Shown: positions 4,908 through 10,463 of the stretch, in pieces
Layout of the letters: each line of letters starts with the position of its first letter
Position numbering within the stretch: the stretch's first letter is position 1
Origin: Streptomyces sp. TG1A-60
GTDB taxonomy: Bacteria > Actinomycetota > Actinomycetes > Streptomycetales > Streptomycetaceae
Reading direction: 5' to 3'
Length of the DNA stretch: 64,000 bases
NCBI RefSeq assembly: GCF_037201975.1
Contig: NZ_CP147520.1
Location: forward strand, 7,440,001 to 7,504,000
The notes under the pieces: generated by a model
Databases searched by the model: none
What the model was told of the DNA's origin: nothing
What the model saw: only the letters and a program-made list of their open reading frames with translations
Program-made: the position numbers and the translations under genes

Positions 4908-6113
4908 GTGAGCAGCGAGAACTCTTCGGCGGACGACGTGCAGCGGGTGTGGGACGTCGTCGTGGTGGGCGCGGGCCCCGCAGGGGCTTCGGCCGCCTAC
5001 GCGGCGGCGGTCGCGGGACGCAGCGTCCTGTTGCTGGAGAAGGCGGAGCTGCCGCGGTACAAGACGTGCGGCGGCGGCATCATCGGCCCCTCGCGCGACG
5101 CGCTGCCGCCCGGCTTCGAACTCCCCTTCAAGGACCGTGTGCACGCGGTCACCTTCTCCCTCGACGGCCGCTACGCCCGTACGCGCAAGTCCAAGCAGAT
5201 GCTGTTCGGGCTGATCAACCGGCCCGAGTTCGACCAGCAACTCGTCGAGCACGCCCAGAAGGCCGGCGCGGAACTGCGTACGGGCGTCACGGTCACCCGG
5301 GTCGAGCAGCACGGCTCGACCGTGCCGGACCGGCGCACGGTCGCCGTCGTCCTGCAGGGCGGAGAGGCACTGCTGGCGCGGGCCGTCGTCGGCGCGGACG
5401 GCAGCGCCAGCCGCATAGGGGCGCATGTCGGGGTGAAGCTGGAGCAGGTCGACCTCGGCCTGGAGGCGGAGATCCCCGTGCCGGACACCGTCGCCGAGGA
5501 CTGGAAGGGACGCGTCCTCATCGACTGGGGCCCGATGCCCGGCAGTTACGGATGGGTCTTCCCCAAGGGCGACACACTGACCGTCGGTGTGATCTCCGCG
5601 CGCGGTGAAGGCGCCGCCACCAAGCGGTACTTGGAGGACTTCATCGGACGGCTCGGCCTCGCCGGGTTCGAACCGAGCGTCTCCTCCGGGCACTTGACGC
5701 GTTGCCGCGCCGACGACTCACCGCTTTCGCGGGGGAGGGTACTGGTGTGCGGGGACGCGGCGGGCCTGTTGGAGCCGTGGACGCGGGAGGGCATCTCCTT
5801 CGCCCTGCGCTCGGGGCGGCTCGCGGGGGAGTGGGCGGTCCGCATCGCCGAGGCGCACGACGCGGTGGACACCCGCCGCCAGGCCCTGAACTACGCGTTC
5901 GCCGTCAAGGCGGGGCTGGGCGTCGAGATGAGCGTCGGCAAGCGGCTGCTGATCGCGTTCGAGCGACGGCCCGGACTCTTCCACGCGGCACTCACCGGGT
6001 TCCGGCCCGCCTGGCGGACCTTCGTCGACATCACGCGTGGCTCGACCTCGCTGGGCGAGATCGTCCGCACCCACCCGATCGCCCAGCGCGCGCTGACCGC
6101 GTTCGACAAGTAG
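4908..6113 (+). CDS. geranylgeranyl reductase family FAD-dependent oxidoreductase
   Basis: A 401-residue FAD monooxygenase-fold protein. The dinucleotide-binding motif VVVGAGPAGASAA is at about residues 18-30. A CGGG motif after LPRYKT and the later GDAAG..PWTREGI segment are characteristic of the geranylgeranyl reductase family. These enzymes reduce isoprenoid double bonds, for example on menaquinone, carotenoid or lipid side chains. The substrate here is not evident. The GTG start follows a GGGAGCAG purine run. The gene stands alone and ends 65 bases before the convergent nitroreductase remnant. Confidence 0.85.
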   Translation: MSSENSSADDVQRVWDVVVVGAGPAGASAAYAAAVAGRSVLLLEKAELPRYKTCGGGIIGPSRDALPPGFELPFKDRVHAVTFSLDGRYARTRKSKQMLFGLINRPEFDQQLVEHAQKAGAELRTGVTVTRVEQHGSTVPDRRTVAVVLQGGEALLARAVVGADGSASRIGAHVGVKLEQVDLGLEAEIPVPDTVAEDWKGRVLIDWGPMPGSYGWVFPKGDTLTVGVISARGEGAATKRYLEDFIGRLGLAGFEPSVSSGHLTRCRADDSPLSRGRVLVCGDAAGLLEPWTREGISFALRSGRLAGEWAVRIAEAHDAVDTRRQALNYAFAVKAGLGVEMSVGKRLLIAFERRPGLFHAALTGFRPAWRTFVDITRGSTSLGEIVRTHPIAQRALTAFDK

Positions 6114-6177
6114 GCGCCGGACGCCGGGCCGGCCCATGCGGCATGGACCGGCCGACAGCCGGCGGCACCCCGGCCGG

Positions 6178-6420
6178 TCACTGCTTGACGGTGATCCGGA
6201 AGACGGGGTGCCTCGGCGCGGCGGCGAGCAACTGCTCGTCGGTGGAGTCGGCGTTGACGTCGCCGAAGAACCGGCTCACCTCCCAGCCCCACTTCTTGAG
6301 GTAGGCGCGCAGGACGACGGGCTTCTCCTCGTCGGGCAGTTCGAGCGCCGTGAACTCCTGTACGCGGCGGCCCACCTGGAGCCGTCCACCGCCTGCCGCC
6401 CGCATGTTGCGCACCCTGTC
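6178..6420 (-). pseudogene. deazaflavin-dependent nitroreductase family protein, C-terminal remnant
   Basis: About 80 residues reading VRNMRAAGGG...RRVQEFTA...LRAYLKKWGWEV...HPVFRI. They match the C-terminal half of F420-dependent (DDN/nitroreductase) family proteins, where VRN-RAAGGG normally sits mid-protein after a TVGW motif. The whole N-terminal half is missing. Immediately upstream in the same direction is the N-terminal half of a different gene (6419-6650), overlapping it out of frame, so the two remnants look joined by a deletion. A GTG at 6420 or ATG at 6414 could start translation of the stub, but a functional enzyme is unlikely. Confidence 0.65.
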
Positions 6421-6650
6421 AGGAGCGGGTCGCCGTCCGGGTCGGGCTCGCCGCCGACGCGCCGGGGTGAGGTGTGGCCCCGGCGACGAACGCCGTGAGC
6501 CAGCGGTGCACGACTCCGGTGTGCCGCACCAGATCCCGGGCCCGCCAGTCGGGGCAGGTCGGCACCGCGGCGTCCGTGCCGGCCTTCCGGACCGCCGCGA
6601 CCAGCAGCCGGCCCTCCTCGTCGAGTGCTCTGATGTCCTCGGCGCTCTCC
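6419..6650 (-). pseudogene. maleylpyruvate isomerase / DinB-like protein, N-terminal remnant
   Basis: The minus strand reads ESAEDIRALDEEGRLL...VPTCPDWRARDLVRHTG..HRWLTAFV and stops at 6421-6419. CPDW..RDLVRHTG is the N-terminal signature of the mycothiol-dependent maleylpyruvate isomerase family (normally about 200-250 residues; only about 75 remain). No convincing start codon is seen between the hairpin at 6681-6715 and the conserved region. The 3' end runs straight into the nitroreductase remnant. In another frame the expected DGDPLL motif of this family is still readable at the junction, which locates the deletion near 6415-6435. Confidence 0.6.
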
Positions 6651-6680
6651 AGGGGGCGAGTCCGCCGGATGAAGTGCGCT

Positions 6681-6715
6681 CGAAGCGCCCGCCCGGAACA
6701 GGGGCGGGCGCTTCG
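6681..6715 (-). terminator. hairpin terminator after the graspetide maturase gene
   Basis: CGAAGCGCCCGCCC (6681-6694) pairs with GGGCGGGCGCTTCG (6702-6715) in a perfect 14-bp stem with a 7-base loop. It lies 42 bases downstream of the stop of the minus-strand ATP-grasp gene, so it should end the graspetide transcript. Confidence 0.75.
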
Positions 6716-6756
6716 GTTCGTCGGGAAGTGGTGAGCTTCAGGAGGCGCCAGGGGGT

Positions 6757-7746
6757 TCAGGGGGTTGCTCGTATGCGGCCGTCACGGTGCCTCCCTGCGC
6801 CCGGCTCCGCGTGCGCCAGCCACTCGGCGACACTGCGGGCGATCGGCTGGCCGGTGTCCATCTCCACGAACCCGAACTGGCCCGACTGGTTGCACTCCAG
6901 GAACCACCAGATCCCGTCGGCGTCCTCCACGAAGTCGAGGGCCCCGTACGAGAGTCCGGCGTCACGCAGATAGGCCCGCACGGCCGTGGCGGTACGCGCC
7001 GGGACGCCGACCGGCTCCCAGGGCGCGGTGGACGGGGCGAAACGGACGTCCACCTCGTCGGGGTGGGCTCCCGGGGCGACCGTCTTGCGGGCGGCCAACA
7101 TGCGGTCGCCGACGGCCGTGAGCCGGATGTCGGCGGTCTTGGCGATCCGGCGCTGCAGCAGCGTCGGGCCGAACGCGACGGGGGTGAAGTCGGTGCCCGG
7201 CGGCACCCGGCTGGTCGGAACCGTCCGGGGCGGCTCCTGCGGGTGTGTGCCGGAGACGGGCTTCACCACCAGGTCGGGGAAGCGTTCGGCGAAGTCGCGG
7301 GCCGCCTGCGGGAACGTGGTGATCAGCGTGGCCGGTACGGGGAGACCGCAGCGCTGGGCGTGCCGGAGCTGCCAGGGCTTGTGGCGGGCACGCCGGGCCG
7401 CGTCCGGGTCGTTCATCCAGCGGGCGCCCGTGCCGCGCAGCATTCCGTACAGCGCCTGCGAGGACTCCTCGGTCAGCCACGCGGACGGCTCGGCGACCTT
7501 GGCGGCCGGAACCCCCGGCCGCCGCAGCCAGACCGACCGCAGCCCGCTCATGCTCACCAGCCGCCCTCCGGCGTTCAGATGTCCGCGGAAGGCGCCGTAG
7601 ACGTACTCACCGGAGAGCGCCACCCCGCCGGGCAGGTCGGCGGGGTCGAACCGGACCACCGGTACACCGGTCCGGTTCAGTTGTGCCACCACCAGATCCG
7701 CCGTCACGTCCTGTTCGCAGGTGAGGATCAGTACGGTCATCGTCAC
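6757..7746 (-). CDS. tgmB: ATP-grasp graspetide (RiPP) maturase
   Basis: A 329-residue ATP-grasp ligase of the ribosomal-peptide maturase type (SAV_5884-like family). It starts VLILTCEQDVTADLVV and contains WLRRPG, NDPDAARRARHKPWQL, DLVVKPVSG and a C-terminal metal-binding ECNQSGQFGFVE motif. The last is the usual ATP-grasp E-x-N site. Enzymes of this family activate Asp/Glu side chains with ATP and join them to Thr/Ser or Lys side chains of a precursor, giving omega-ester or omega-amide macrocycles (graspetides). The precursor gene lies 10 bases upstream on the same strand, as expected for an operon. GTG 7746 and ATG 7740 are alternative starts two codons apart. The methyltransferase often found third in such clusters is absent; a terminator follows. 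Confidence 0.85.
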   Translation of the reverse strand: MTMTVLILTCEQDVTADLVVAQLNRTGVPVVRFDPADLPGGVALSGEYVYGAFRGHLNAGGRLVSMSGLRSVWLRRPGVPAAKVAEPSAWLTEESSQALYGMLRGTGARWMNDPDAARRARHKPWQLRHAQRCGLPVPATLITTFPQAARDFAERFPDLVVKPVSGTHPQEPPRTVPTSRVPPGTDFTPVAFGPTLLQRRIAKTADIRLTAVGDRMLAARKTVAPGAHPDEVDVRFAPSTAPWEPVGVPARTATAVRAYLRDAGLSYGALDFVEDADGIWWFLECNQSGQFGFVEMDTGQPIARSVAEWLAHAEPGAGRHRDGRIRATP

Positions 7747-7756
7747 CGGTCCGCGT

Positions 7757-7948
7757 TCAGTCGTCGAAATGGGTCTTCGAGCCCGCCGTTGAGGTCGTCG
7801 CTCCCAGTTCCCGCATCAGACCCTGGTCATGGGCGGCGACCCGCCCGTCGGCGAGTACGTTCAACTGCAGTGCGGAGTCGTAGGTGTACGGAGCGCTGAA
7901 CTCCAACTGCTCAGTTGTGCGAGCGTAGTTGAGCACGAACAGTCGCAT
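7757..7948 (-). CDS. tgmA: graspetide precursor peptide (ATP-grasp-modified RiPP)
   Basis: A 63-residue precursor. A leader of about 45 residues begins MRLFVLNYART and contains PYTYDSALQLNVLADGR, the conserved leader pattern of ATP-grasp-targeted RiPPs (family knowledge). The C-terminus ends TTSTAGSKTHFDD, a core rich in Thr/Ser donors and two terminal Asp acceptors for side-chain ester or amide rings. ATG 7948 is chosen because AAGGAG lies 6 bases upstream; longer upstream frame lacks a ribosome site and family similarity. The mature product and the leader cleavage site are unknown; ring pattern is inference. Confidence 0.85.
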   Translation of the reverse strand: MRLFVLNYARTTEQLEFSAPYTYDSALQLNVLADGRVAAHDQGLMRELGATTSTAGSKTHFDD

Positions 7949-7967
7949 CGTTTCTCCTTGTTCGGGA

Positions 7968-7987
7968 CCATCCGGAAAAGCGGATGG
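7968..7987 (-). promoter_or_regulatory. hairpin in the 5' leader of the graspetide operon
   Basis: CCATCCG (7968-7974) pairs with CGGATGG (7981-7987) across GAAAAG. It lies just upstream of the ribosome-binding site of the precursor gene. A TATAAC-like -10 element is seen further upstream on the minus strand near 8040. The hairpin could tune translation or RNA stability; this is inference. Confidence 0.4.
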
Positions 7988-8139
7988 TGACGCTCCGGCC
8001 GTCCTCTGTCCGACCGGGGCGCGGTGCCTCCAGGGAGTTATACGAATCGAACGACTGAATGGTTGCCTCATGTTGTCGGAGGACTGAGTTCATTCCCCGC
8101 GAGGTGTCACGGAGCAACGGTGAGTGGTCATTTCGCCAC

Positions 8140-8830
8140 CGAGTGACGGGTGGTGAACGCGGTGACGGAGGCGAACGCGGCGAGCACCGCGACGCTGGTG
8201 AGCGCGGTCGGGAGGGAGACCACTCGGCCATGAAACCGACCGCGTGGGCCTGGGAGCATGTCGAGGTGCCCGAGGGTGGAGGCGGTGACGACGCCGCCCG
8301 GGCCGGCCGGCGCGCCGGCGCGTTCGACGGCGACGGGGAAGATGTGGGCGAGGCCCGGACCGGTCACCGCGAAGCGGAGCAGGGCCGCCCACACCGAGGG
8401 GCGAGGGAGCCGAGCAGTGTGCCGGCCGTCGCGGTCGCGCCACCGGCCACGAGCACCGTGGTCCTGCCCGGGCGTTCGAGCAGGGTCGTCCCGTCAGCCG
8501 GCCGATCGTCATGGCGAGCGCGAAACACGAGTAACCGATCGCCGCGACTCCGGAGGAGGTGATCGGTCCTCCTCCAGGTGCAGGGCGCCCCAGTCGGCCG
8601 GCGCGCCCTCGCCGTACGTCGTGCACCCGGCGATCAGACCGAGGACGACGAGCAGGCCGCGGGTACGGCCCGTCGAGGTGGCGCGGGGCGGGCCCCCTGC
8701 TCCTCCTGCCCACAGCCGTGGTCCGGCGGAGCAGGGGGCTCGTGGCGCAGCAGGGCGGGCGCGGCGGCGGTCACGCTGGCCGAGCACGGCCATCGGTAAG
8801 CCGATGCTGAGGGCTTCGGGGGCAAGGCCG
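8140..8830 (-). pseudogene. MFS transporter remnant (C-terminal half, frameshifted)
   Basis: Successive frames of the minus strand carry consecutive pieces of one major facilitator protein: LVVLGLIAGCTTYGEGAPADW, then SSGVAAIGYSCFALAMTIGRLTG, then RFAVTGPGLAHIFPVAVERAG, then SLPTALTSVAVLAAFASVTAF. They add up to roughly the C-terminal 220 residues of a protein that is normally about 400. The pieces are in different frames, so several frameshifts are present, and the N-terminal half is not found. This is a decayed gene. The graspetide operon lies just downstream. Confidence 0.65.
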
Positions 8831-8989
8831 ACAGAATGCGGGGCGTGGGCCGGTGCTTTCGGAATGTGGAATTCCTTCGGGAGGTACTCATCGTTTTCGC
8901 GGGAGTGTCCGGGTCGGTAAAATCGGACTGGGCATGCGACACCGTTTCACCGGAGGTCAGCGGTGCTGTGTCGAAATCGCTCGCCGCAT

Positions 8990-9388
8990 GCGCCCGCCCA
9001 TTCCCCAGCCGATTCCGCGAGCCGCCGGAGGTCGGCCGGCCGCCCGGAACGTCCGCAGGCGCAGGGAGTTGCCGACACGAAGACCGAGGAGAACGCCGTG
9101 TCCGCTCCGGCGATCATGGGGTTGAGGAGGCCGACCGCCGCGAGCGGCAGGGCGGCCACGTTGTAGGCGGACGCCCAGAACAGGTTGGACCGGATGGTGC
9201 CGAGGGTCCGGCGGGCGAGGCGGATGGGGTCGGCGGCCACGCGCAGATCGCCGCGTACGAGGGTCAGGTCCAACAGGACCGGGGTGAGGCCGAGCGACCG
9301 CAGCCAGGTGATCGTCTCCGCGCTGGTCGCCTTCACCGCGTCGGCGACTTCGAGGACCGCGCGGGCCTCGCCGTCCCAGGGGACAGCG
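8990..9388 (-). pseudogene. copper-translocating P-type ATPase remnant with large internal deletion
   Basis: The minus strand reads WDGEARAVLEVADAVKATSAETI..LRSLGLTPVLL, which is the start of the P-type ATPase hinge/P-domain. It is fused directly to DLTLVRGDLRVAADPIRLARRTLG..NLFWA.AYNVAALPLAA.GLLNPMIAG, the region just before the last membrane helices. The stretch between PVLLTGDN and the TGTDVAIEA motif is gone, as is everything before the P-domain, including the CPC copper site and the DKTG phosphorylation site. A frameshift after FSSVFV moves the ending NSLRLRTFR into another frame. It cannot be a working pump. It lies upstream of a copper-type operator. Confidence 0.75.
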
Positions 9389-9390
9389 TG

Positions 9391-9422
9391 CCCGGATGCC
9401 CGGATGCCCGGATGCCCGGATG
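9391..9422. repeat. four perfect tandem copies of an 8-base unit
   Basis: CCCGGATG is repeated four times without interruption at 9391-9422. The array sits at the truncated 5' side of the copper ATPase remnant and 25 bases before the copper operator, so it may mark a deletion or slippage endpoint. Confidence 0.85.
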
Positions 9423-9446
9423 CCTCGGACCCGGACCCGGACCGTG

Positions 9447-9466
9447 ATACCCCATAGGGGTATAAT
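9447..9466 (+). promoter_or_regulatory. CsoR-type copper operator overlapping a -10 box
   Basis: ATACCCCATAGGGGTAT (9447-9463) is a perfect inverted repeat with a 3-base centre and matches the known CsoR operator pattern TACCCC-N-GGGGTA. A consensus TATAAT (9461-9466) overlaps its right edge, so a repressor bound here would block the promoter. The start of the downstream exported protein is at 9498. Copper-induced derepression is the natural inference. Confidence 0.8.
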
Positions 9467-9497
9467 GGGTGGAGGCCCGGACCCGAAGGAGACCGCC

Positions 9498-10463
9498 ATG
9501 AACACCGGACTGAGGATCGCCGCGTTCGCCGCCGCGCTGGCCGCGACCTTCGCCGCCGCCTACGCCGTGGGCGACGGTGTCGGGCCCGTCATCAAGGACG
9601 CCGGGGAGAGCACGCCCGCGCGCCACGACAGCCACAGCGAGACCTCACCGAAACCCGACGAGGGCGGCGGCCACGCCGGACGGCACGAAGCGGCCCCCGT
9701 CGGCGGACTGCAGATCTCCGAGGACGGTTACACCCTCGACCTCCGGACTCCCACCGTCACCGCAGGGCAGCGCACGGAGCTGCGCTTCGTCATCCGCGAC
9801 GAGGACGGCCACGCCGTCACGGAGTACCGGCGCGAGCACGAGAAGGAACTGCACCTCATCCTCGCCTCCCGTGACCTGGTCACCTACCGCCATCTGCACC
9901 CCACCCGCGCCGCCGACGGCACCTGGAGCACCTCCGTCGACCTGCCCGAGGCGGGCGGCTACCGCGTCTTCGCCGACTTCACCCCGGCAGGGAAGAACAC
10001 CGCGAACCTCACGCTCGGCGCCGACCTGGCGGCCTCGGGCACCTACAAGCCCGAGAAGCTCCCGCCGACGGGCAACACCGCCGAGGTCAACGGCTACGAG
10101 GTCGAGCTGGAGGGCGGCCTGCGTCCGGACGCGGCGGGCGAACTCAGGCTCAGGGTCTCCCGTGACGGCAGGCCCGTCACCGACCTCCAGCCCTATCTCG
10201 GTGCGTACGGCCACCTGGTCGCCCTGCGCTCCGGCGACCTCGCCTACCTCCACGTCCACCCGAACGGCGAGCCCGGCGACGACGAAACCCGACCCGGCCC
10301 GGACATCTCCTTCACGGCCACCGCGCCCAGCGCCGGCACCTACCGCCTCTTCCTCGACTTCCAGCACGAGGGGAAGGTCCACACGGCCGCGTTCACGGTC
10401 CGCGCGGGCGGCACGGCGGCCTCTGAGGAGCCGCACGAGACTTCGCCCGGCCATGCCCACTGA
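9498..10463 (+). CDS. copper-regulated exported protein of unknown biochemical function
   Basis: A 321-residue protein with an N-terminal hydrophobic signal or anchor (about residues 5-24, LRIAAFAAALAATFAAAYAV) and a His/Asp-rich spacer (ARHDSHSETS, GGGHAGRHE). Two beta-rich domains follow, about residues 70-180 and 195-305. Each contains H-x-H patterns (YRHLHP, AYLHVHP), an E/D-rich strand and a Y-R-x-F-x-DF motif. The tail ends HETSPGHAH. The histidine clusters and the CsoR-type operator suggest metal binding outside the membrane. ATG 9498 has GAAGGAG 7 bases upstream. The family is known next to copper ATPases in streptomycetes, but no reaction has been assigned that I can name. Confidence 0.75.
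   Translation: MNTGLRIAAFAAALAATFAAAYAVGDGVGPVIKDAGESTPARHDSHSETSPKPDEGGGHAGRHEAAPVGGLQISEDGYTLDLRTPTVTAGQRTELRFVIRDEDGHAVTEYRREHEKELHLILASRDLVTYRHLHPTRAADGTWSTSVDLPEAGGYRVFADFTPAGKNTANLTLGADLAASGTYKPEKLPPTGNTAEVNGYEVELEGGLRPDAAGELRLRVSRDGRPVTDLQPYLGAYGHLVALRSGDLAYLHVHPNGEPGDDETRPGPDISFTATAPSAGTYRLFLDFQHEGKVHTAAFTVRAGGTAASEEPHETSPGHAH

Follow-up and report, generated by a model that had tools for sequence, protein, structure and literature searches.

A graspetide precursor gene adjoins its maturase gene

The stretch of DNA analysed here (the window, 64,000 nucleotides of Streptomyces sp. TG1A-60) corresponds to G000:C1:7440001-7504000 within a single contig of 7.83 Mb; G, C and L designate genomes, contigs and loci throughout. 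The features discussed below, with their positions in the window, are the following.

6187-6414: F420-reductase-like piece
6375..6721, minus strand: MDMPI (mycothiol maleylpyruvate isomerase-like) gene remnant; in close relatives the gene follows the maturase
6681..6715, minus strand: terminator-like hairpin of 14 bp after the maturase, without a U tract
6757..7746, minus strand: ATP-grasp maturase (graspetide synthetase), TIGR04187; GTG start at 7746, conserved ATG start at 7740
7757..7948, minus strand: graspetide precursor gene, 63 aa, PF14404 Strep_pep / TIGR04186 GRASP_targ
7967..7988, minus strand: leader hairpin with an 8-bp stem, just upstream of the ribosome-binding site
8030..8071, minus strand: near-invariant upstream element, consensus gTaAGGaAACCAa.CAccCGTTCGATTCGTATAAgTc.cTGgAag, with the 15-mer GTTCGATTCGTATAA at 8038-8052
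8131..8694, minus strand: MFS transporter gene remnant; close relatives have the gene upstream of the precursor
9031-9459, minus strand: fragments of a heavy-metal P-type ATPase gene, which is an open frame in L094

The precursor gene has 63 codons and its product ends in TTSTAGSKTHFDD, as a first-pass annotation of this DNA had stated. The protein matched Pfam PF14404 (Strep_pep) over residues 1-63 of 63 with 126.7 bits (cut-off 25, the gathering score) and TIGR04186 (GRASP_targ) with 31.2 bits (cut-off 25). Its neighbour scored 393 bits against TIGR04187, the ATP-grasp ribosomal peptide maturase family (curated cut-off 350), and contains the MvdD pre-ATP-grasp domain PF21068 as matched by Pfam. 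A precursor adjoining an ATP-grasp macrocyclase, the arrangement by which graspetide clusters are recognised, is present at this locus, and the initial call of a graspetide-type cluster was confirmed by the PF14404 and TIGR04187 matches. The spacing of 10 bases given in that annotation applies if translation of the maturase starts at the GTG (7746); from the ATG at 7740 the gap is 16 bases, and the maturases of 12 close relatives start at the equivalent of this ATG, 16–17 bases past the precursor stop. The genome contains one PF14404 match and one TIGR04187 match above the cut-off. An extra, short TIGR04187 match of 49 bits, limited to profile positions 1-44 (the N-terminus), was detected at G000:C1:6002017-6002148 (L017), and is perhaps the remnant of a second maturase.

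Family spread and invariance of the core peptide

In a set of 295 Streptomyces genomes, PF14404 was matched in 164 (161 above the cut-off), TIGR04187 was found above its cut-off in 210 and TIGR04188, the methyltransferase family considered below, in 107. Two samples of loci were compared with the window: 60 relatives, for which 19 kb were fetched around PF14404 genes picked from 150 matches listed, with preference for large contigs, and 80 named Streptomyces loci found through the maturase, which were the best 80 of 434 confirmed. These samples share at least two loci and are not fully independent. The 60 relatives and the window make up the 61 loci referred to hereafter, and the addition of the 80 named loci gives 141. 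A 63-aa precursor gene lies directly before the maturase gene in all 60 relatives, in the window and in all 80 named loci, the window maturase being 57–93% identical to those of the 60 relatives. One of the loci, L119, is a second PF14404 copy of genome G218; its maturase aligns in two pieces and is possibly frameshifted.

Alignment of the precursors showed conservation both of leader positions and of donor and acceptor residues. F4, Q28, N30, G35 and A38 of the leader are invariant across the 141 loci, as are T51, S53, A55, G56, S57, T59, H60, F61, D62 and D63. The last 13 residues of the window peptide recur in 48 of the 61 loci (window counted), preceded by GT in 35 of them, GA in 6, GS in 4 and AT in 3. 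Because the core is nearly invariant and PF14404 exceeds its cut-off in 161/295 genomes, the product is not singular, and the earlier proposal, drawn from the short acidic end, of a product not yet described was not supported by the comparison. The window cluster is an ordinary, intact and common two-gene Streptomyces graspetide cluster. Both of its genes are under purifying selection: dN/dS of the precursor was 0.06–0.15 against 12 close relatives and 0.08–0.29 against 5 more distant ones, and that of the maturase 0.13–0.26 and 0.19–0.30, respectively.

Asp62 and Asp63 are the sole acidic residues at positions 49-63 of the cores. Two Asp residues would fit two rings, and a further one could arise through a bond to the C-terminal carboxylate. 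At position 58, 51 of the 61 loci have Lys, 5 have Gln and 5 have Ala, and four of the Ala58 forms have Lys at position 54; as 10 of the 61 loci carry Gln or Ala at this position, Lys58 is unlikely to be an obligatory donor.

Two architectures among TIGR04187 clusters

The METHYLTRANSFERASE question, raised by the suggestion that the cluster had lost a third gene, was addressed by tblastn with four TIGR04188-like queries at an E-value of 1e-3, one of them (from L081) running from stop to stop and so taking in some other sequence. The search covered about 9.4 kb on each side of the 60 relatives, flanks of at most 5 kb at the 80 named loci, several of which are cut short where their contig stops, and, in the window, its first 17.5 kb. 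TIGR04188-type matches were found in the flanks of none of the 61 PF14404 loci (window included) and of none of the 80 named ones, a result that holds for this methyltransferase type, as an unrelated methyltransferase would be missed by such queries. The loci of the highest-scoring TIGR04187 matches served as a positive control: of the 31 best, all but one had a locus (L050-L079), and 29 of these 30 were matched by the four queries. In none of the 30 control loci was a PF14404-like precursor detected within the 3.9 kb searched for each. The maturase of L080, another methyltransferase-bearing locus, shares 30–35% identity with the 61 PF14404 maturases. From the contrast of 0/61 and 0/80 with the 29/30 of the control it follows that TIGR04187 spans at least two architectures, one consisting of maturase plus methyltransferase, as in the graspimiditides of group 13 (PMC13097080, PMC13001092), and the other of PF14404 precursor plus maturase. 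The "missing third gene" is the architecture of the methyltransferase subfamily carried over to the PF14404 subfamily. The idea that a methyltransferase was lost and that the product is singular is thereby removed as a false lead, and TIGR04187 clusters can be divided into two kinds according to their architecture. In the control locus L072 the maturase scores high against TIGR04187, and the 3.9 kb searched contained no TIGR04188-type methyltransferase and no PF14404-like precursor.

A genome search for a distant methyltransferase, the check proposed in the first-pass annotation, returned no gene above the TIGR04188 cut-off of 380 bits. The best match was a PIMT-like gene of 263.6 bits at G000:C1:5502200-5503102 (L048), 1.94 Mb away, and the next reached 143 bits at a distance of 3.1 Mb. 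Reading the ORF list by eye revealed no precursor-like or RiPP-like gene beside L048, whose neighbours, as judged from their translations without a family search, are globin, FHA, VWA and ABC-F genes. This PIMT-like gene was not supported as a partner of the cluster, as it falls below the cut-off and its neighbours are unlike those of a RiPP cluster.

Decayed genes around the cluster

The genes on either side of the cluster are decayed, as had been noted from the sequence at the outset, and their remnants derive from MDMPI, MFS, P-type ATPase and F420-reductase-like genes. They were identified through the relatives, as a Pfam scan gave no family for five of the six sequences. The MFS remnant retains residues 230-417 (57% identity) and the MDMPI remnant approximately residues 2-117, split over two frames; the first part of 6375..6721, up to the hairpin, is probably non-coding. 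In the relatives these genes belong to PF07690 (MFS) and PF11716/PF07398 (MDMPI-like), and both are co-directional with the cluster in L094. Upstream of the cluster, MFS is matched over its full length in 10 relatives and in part in L149; downstream, MDMPI is matched over nearly its full length in 11. Open frames were seen for MFS in four relatives (L094, L097, L098 and L150) and for MDMPI in two (L094 and L148). Each of the two genes was detected in 12 of the 141 loci, window counted. About 4 kb downstream and 2–4 kb upstream of the cluster in L094, L097 and L098 are missing from the window. The MFS and MDMPI-like genes that decayed in the window are clade-specific neighbours, present in close relatives.

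The hairpin at 6681-6715 was confirmed by folding (-32.6 kcal/mol, z -4.64, none of 200 shuffles as good) and a similar one is the best hairpin after the maturase in 5 of the 12 close relatives (L094, L097, L098, L144 and L146); what had been described as a 14-bp terminator stands as a hairpin, yet it lacks a U tract. Hairpins of this kind are uninformative as a family trait, as at -20 kcal/mol or below they occur in 134/139 loci against 119/134 random windows.

These observations bear on three other explanations of the locus. That the cluster once had a PIMT-like methyltransferase, since lost, could be argued from the decay of the surrounding genes and from the presence of such a gene in nearly all control loci of the other TIGR04187 subfamily. 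However, the genes that decayed around the cluster correspond to MFS, MDMPI, F420-reductase-like and P-type ATPase genes, no PF14404 locus in either sample has a TIGR04188-type match nearby, and the best TIGR04188-like genes of this genome lie megabases away and below the cut-off, so that we regard such a loss as extremely improbable. Of the two options offered by the first-pass annotation, a naturally minimal cluster or one deprived of its third gene, the former is retained and the latter, as a lost methyltransferase, is not. Decay of the cluster itself into an inactive state would be in keeping with its surroundings, but both reading frames are intact, their dN/dS values against the 12 close relatives stay within 0.06–0.26 and the upstream element is exact in the window, which makes this very unlikely.

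More room can be given to the proposal that the unit of the window clade is a co-directional series of MFS, precursor, maturase and MDMPI-like genes, from which this strain has lost an exporter and an accessory enzyme. The matches at the corresponding places in the relatives, the open frames seen in some of them, the remnants in the window and the several kb gone from either side speak for it. Nevertheless, with each neighbour in just 12/141 loci neither is needed by the family, and a terminator-like hairpin stands between the maturase and MDMPI genes, so that we consider this four-gene unit rather unlikely.

Clustering of 1,316 filtered ORFs from the 61 loci grouped the maturase in 58 loci and yielded a second ORF cluster in 28, corresponding to a real co-directional gene located 1.3–7.4 kb upstream of the precursor. 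The same gene was found in 33 of the 80 named loci, giving 61/141 (e.g. L087, L091 and L099). It has no Pfam family and is not near the cluster in the window; the only copy in the window genome is at C1:7796422-7797411, 349 kb away. This gene was not taken as a conserved third gene, being absent near the window cluster and variable in its distance to the precursor, and because of this variable distance it is read as probably a shared chromosomal neighbour that is not part of the unit.

A near-invariant element upstream of the precursor gene

The element at 8030..8071 lies about 100 nt before the start codon. Its core 14-mer, TTCGATTCGTATAA, was found exactly in 97 of 139 distinct upstream regions and with at most one mismatch in 118, counts in which the sequences share ancestry and are not independent events; among 136 random control windows none came closer than 5 mismatches. 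The position of the element with respect to the start codon shifts, mostly between -100 and -113 or at about -43, and since these shifts break the reading frame, the element is not coding. In its own genome the 15-mer GTTCGATTCGTATAA occurs at a single site with up to two mismatches allowed. Across the 295 genomes, exact copies number 83, each of them within 200 nt upstream of a listed PF14404 gene, and a further 34 sites have one mismatch, 28 of them in the same placement. A 15-mer that stays fixed while the rest of the leader is less conserved is strong evidence of constraint, and the element is probably a promoter or operator. It contains GGAAAC-N17-CGTATA, which by pattern-matching might resemble an ECF-like promoter, with no sigma factor claimed for it. 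This putative regulatory element is the part of the locus worth following and matters more than the cleared false lead and the division of TIGR04187 clusters.

A BldD box, given as nTnACnC(A/T)GnGTnAn in PMC7374567 and present also in PMC4151990, was detected with at most one mismatch in 63 of the 139 upstream regions of the family but in just 4 of 408 control windows, and at a fixed offset of -29 from the 14-mer in 59 of the 118 element-carrying loci (e.g. L102). The window differs from the box at 4 positions at -29 and at 3 in the best site within 300 nt upstream, and 13 close relatives have 3–6 mismatches at that offset and 2–3 at best anywhere, so a BldD-controlled promoter is not recognised in the window itself. 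In the literature searched, which covers few subscription papers, no article joining BldD and ATP-grasp was found. As the core hardly changes across the loci sampled and the gene is preceded by its own element, which half of the time comes with a BldD box at a fixed offset, we tentatively put forward, as an unlikely reading, that PF14404 peptides might be conserved, developmentally timed Streptomyces signals or morphogens and not variable antibiotics, with the gene under a private near-invariant element; the identity of this private element as an ECF-like promoter or dedicated operator would be an equally tentative proposal. With the exact 15-mer confined to sites before PF14404 genes and often accompanied by a BldD box, the timing and purpose of the peptide become directly testable.

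Twenty-one upstream regions have more than one mismatch to the 14-mer. Eight of them encode the usual core, three of these with just 2–3 mismatches, and 13 encode variant cores; the latter are all 13 of the 61 loci with Gln or Ala at position 58 or Ala at 52. Among the six one-mismatch sites of the 15-mer in other placements, three are second sites in genomes that already have a proper one, two belong to genomes in which PF14404 has no match, and one is in G150, whose PF14404 position is not among the matches listed.

The leader hairpin described at 7967..7988 does have its 8-bp stem, but with flanks its fold is unexceptional (z -0.96, 42 of 200 shuffles as good) and its arms are shared by 14 of the 141 loci, namely the window and its closest clade only. 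Of 121 distinct 70-nt leaders, 17 contain a perfect stem of at least 7 bp, the corresponding count for random stretches being 49 of 705. This hairpin was discarded as a conserved riboregulator, being restricted to the clade and without an Rfam match, none having been found in 6000-9500.

Relation to known graspetides and proposed pathway

The window cluster and its product are probably of the prunipeptin type, an assignment made from the distribution of that cluster family. The prunipeptin cluster of Streptomyces prunicolor (MIBiG BGC0002725) encodes a Streptomyces graspetide termed bicyclic and novel in the title of its paper, and the two Asp acceptors of the window peptide would fit two rings. 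A passage of PMC11888242 assigns 3,589 members to the prunipeptin cluster family, 99.53% of them from Streptomyces; we infer that this surveyed family is the PF14404 family. The graspimiditides (group 13: fuscimiditide, amycolimiditide and albusimiditide), which are mostly actinobacterial, resemble the window cluster in their TIGR04187-type maturases and Asp acceptors. They differ from it in their precursors, in the low maturase identity noted above for L080 and in having a PIMT-like methyltransferase, an enzyme type tied to group 13 in parts of PMC13097080 and PMC13001092. The adjacent TIGR04188/PIMT-like gene that marks this group had no match in the window flanks.

On the observed family membership, two-gene architecture, core invariance and purifying selection, we consider it highly probable (about 0.9) that the window carries a complete, working two-gene PF14404 (Strep_pep) graspetide cluster, most likely of the prunipeptin group, with no methyltransferase step. 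In the pathway that we envisage, the precursor would be expressed from a regulated promoter, a role that the upstream element may fulfil, and the maturase would recognise the conserved leader through F4, Q28, N30, G35 and A38. Using ATP, the enzyme would phosphorylate the side chains of Asp62 and Asp63, which would then be joined to Thr or Ser residues of the core, or to Lys58 where present, with two rings as the probable outcome. Leader removal and export would depend on proteins encoded elsewhere, and a methyltransferase step would be foreign to the PF14404 subfamily.

The nearest solved homologue of the maturase is PDB 9BOU, an MvdD-like pre-ATP-grasp domain protein, aligned over residues 2-316 (chain 9bou_A, 533.9 bits, E 1.5e-159); it is known from its deposit only, and no paper naming it was found in the literature searched. 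The microviridin-type ligases (PDB 5IG9, 5IG8 and 7M4S), of which 5IG8 and 5IG9 are presumably the microviridin enzymes, are also ATP-grasp proteins but gave a far weaker maturase match, of 80–89 bits.
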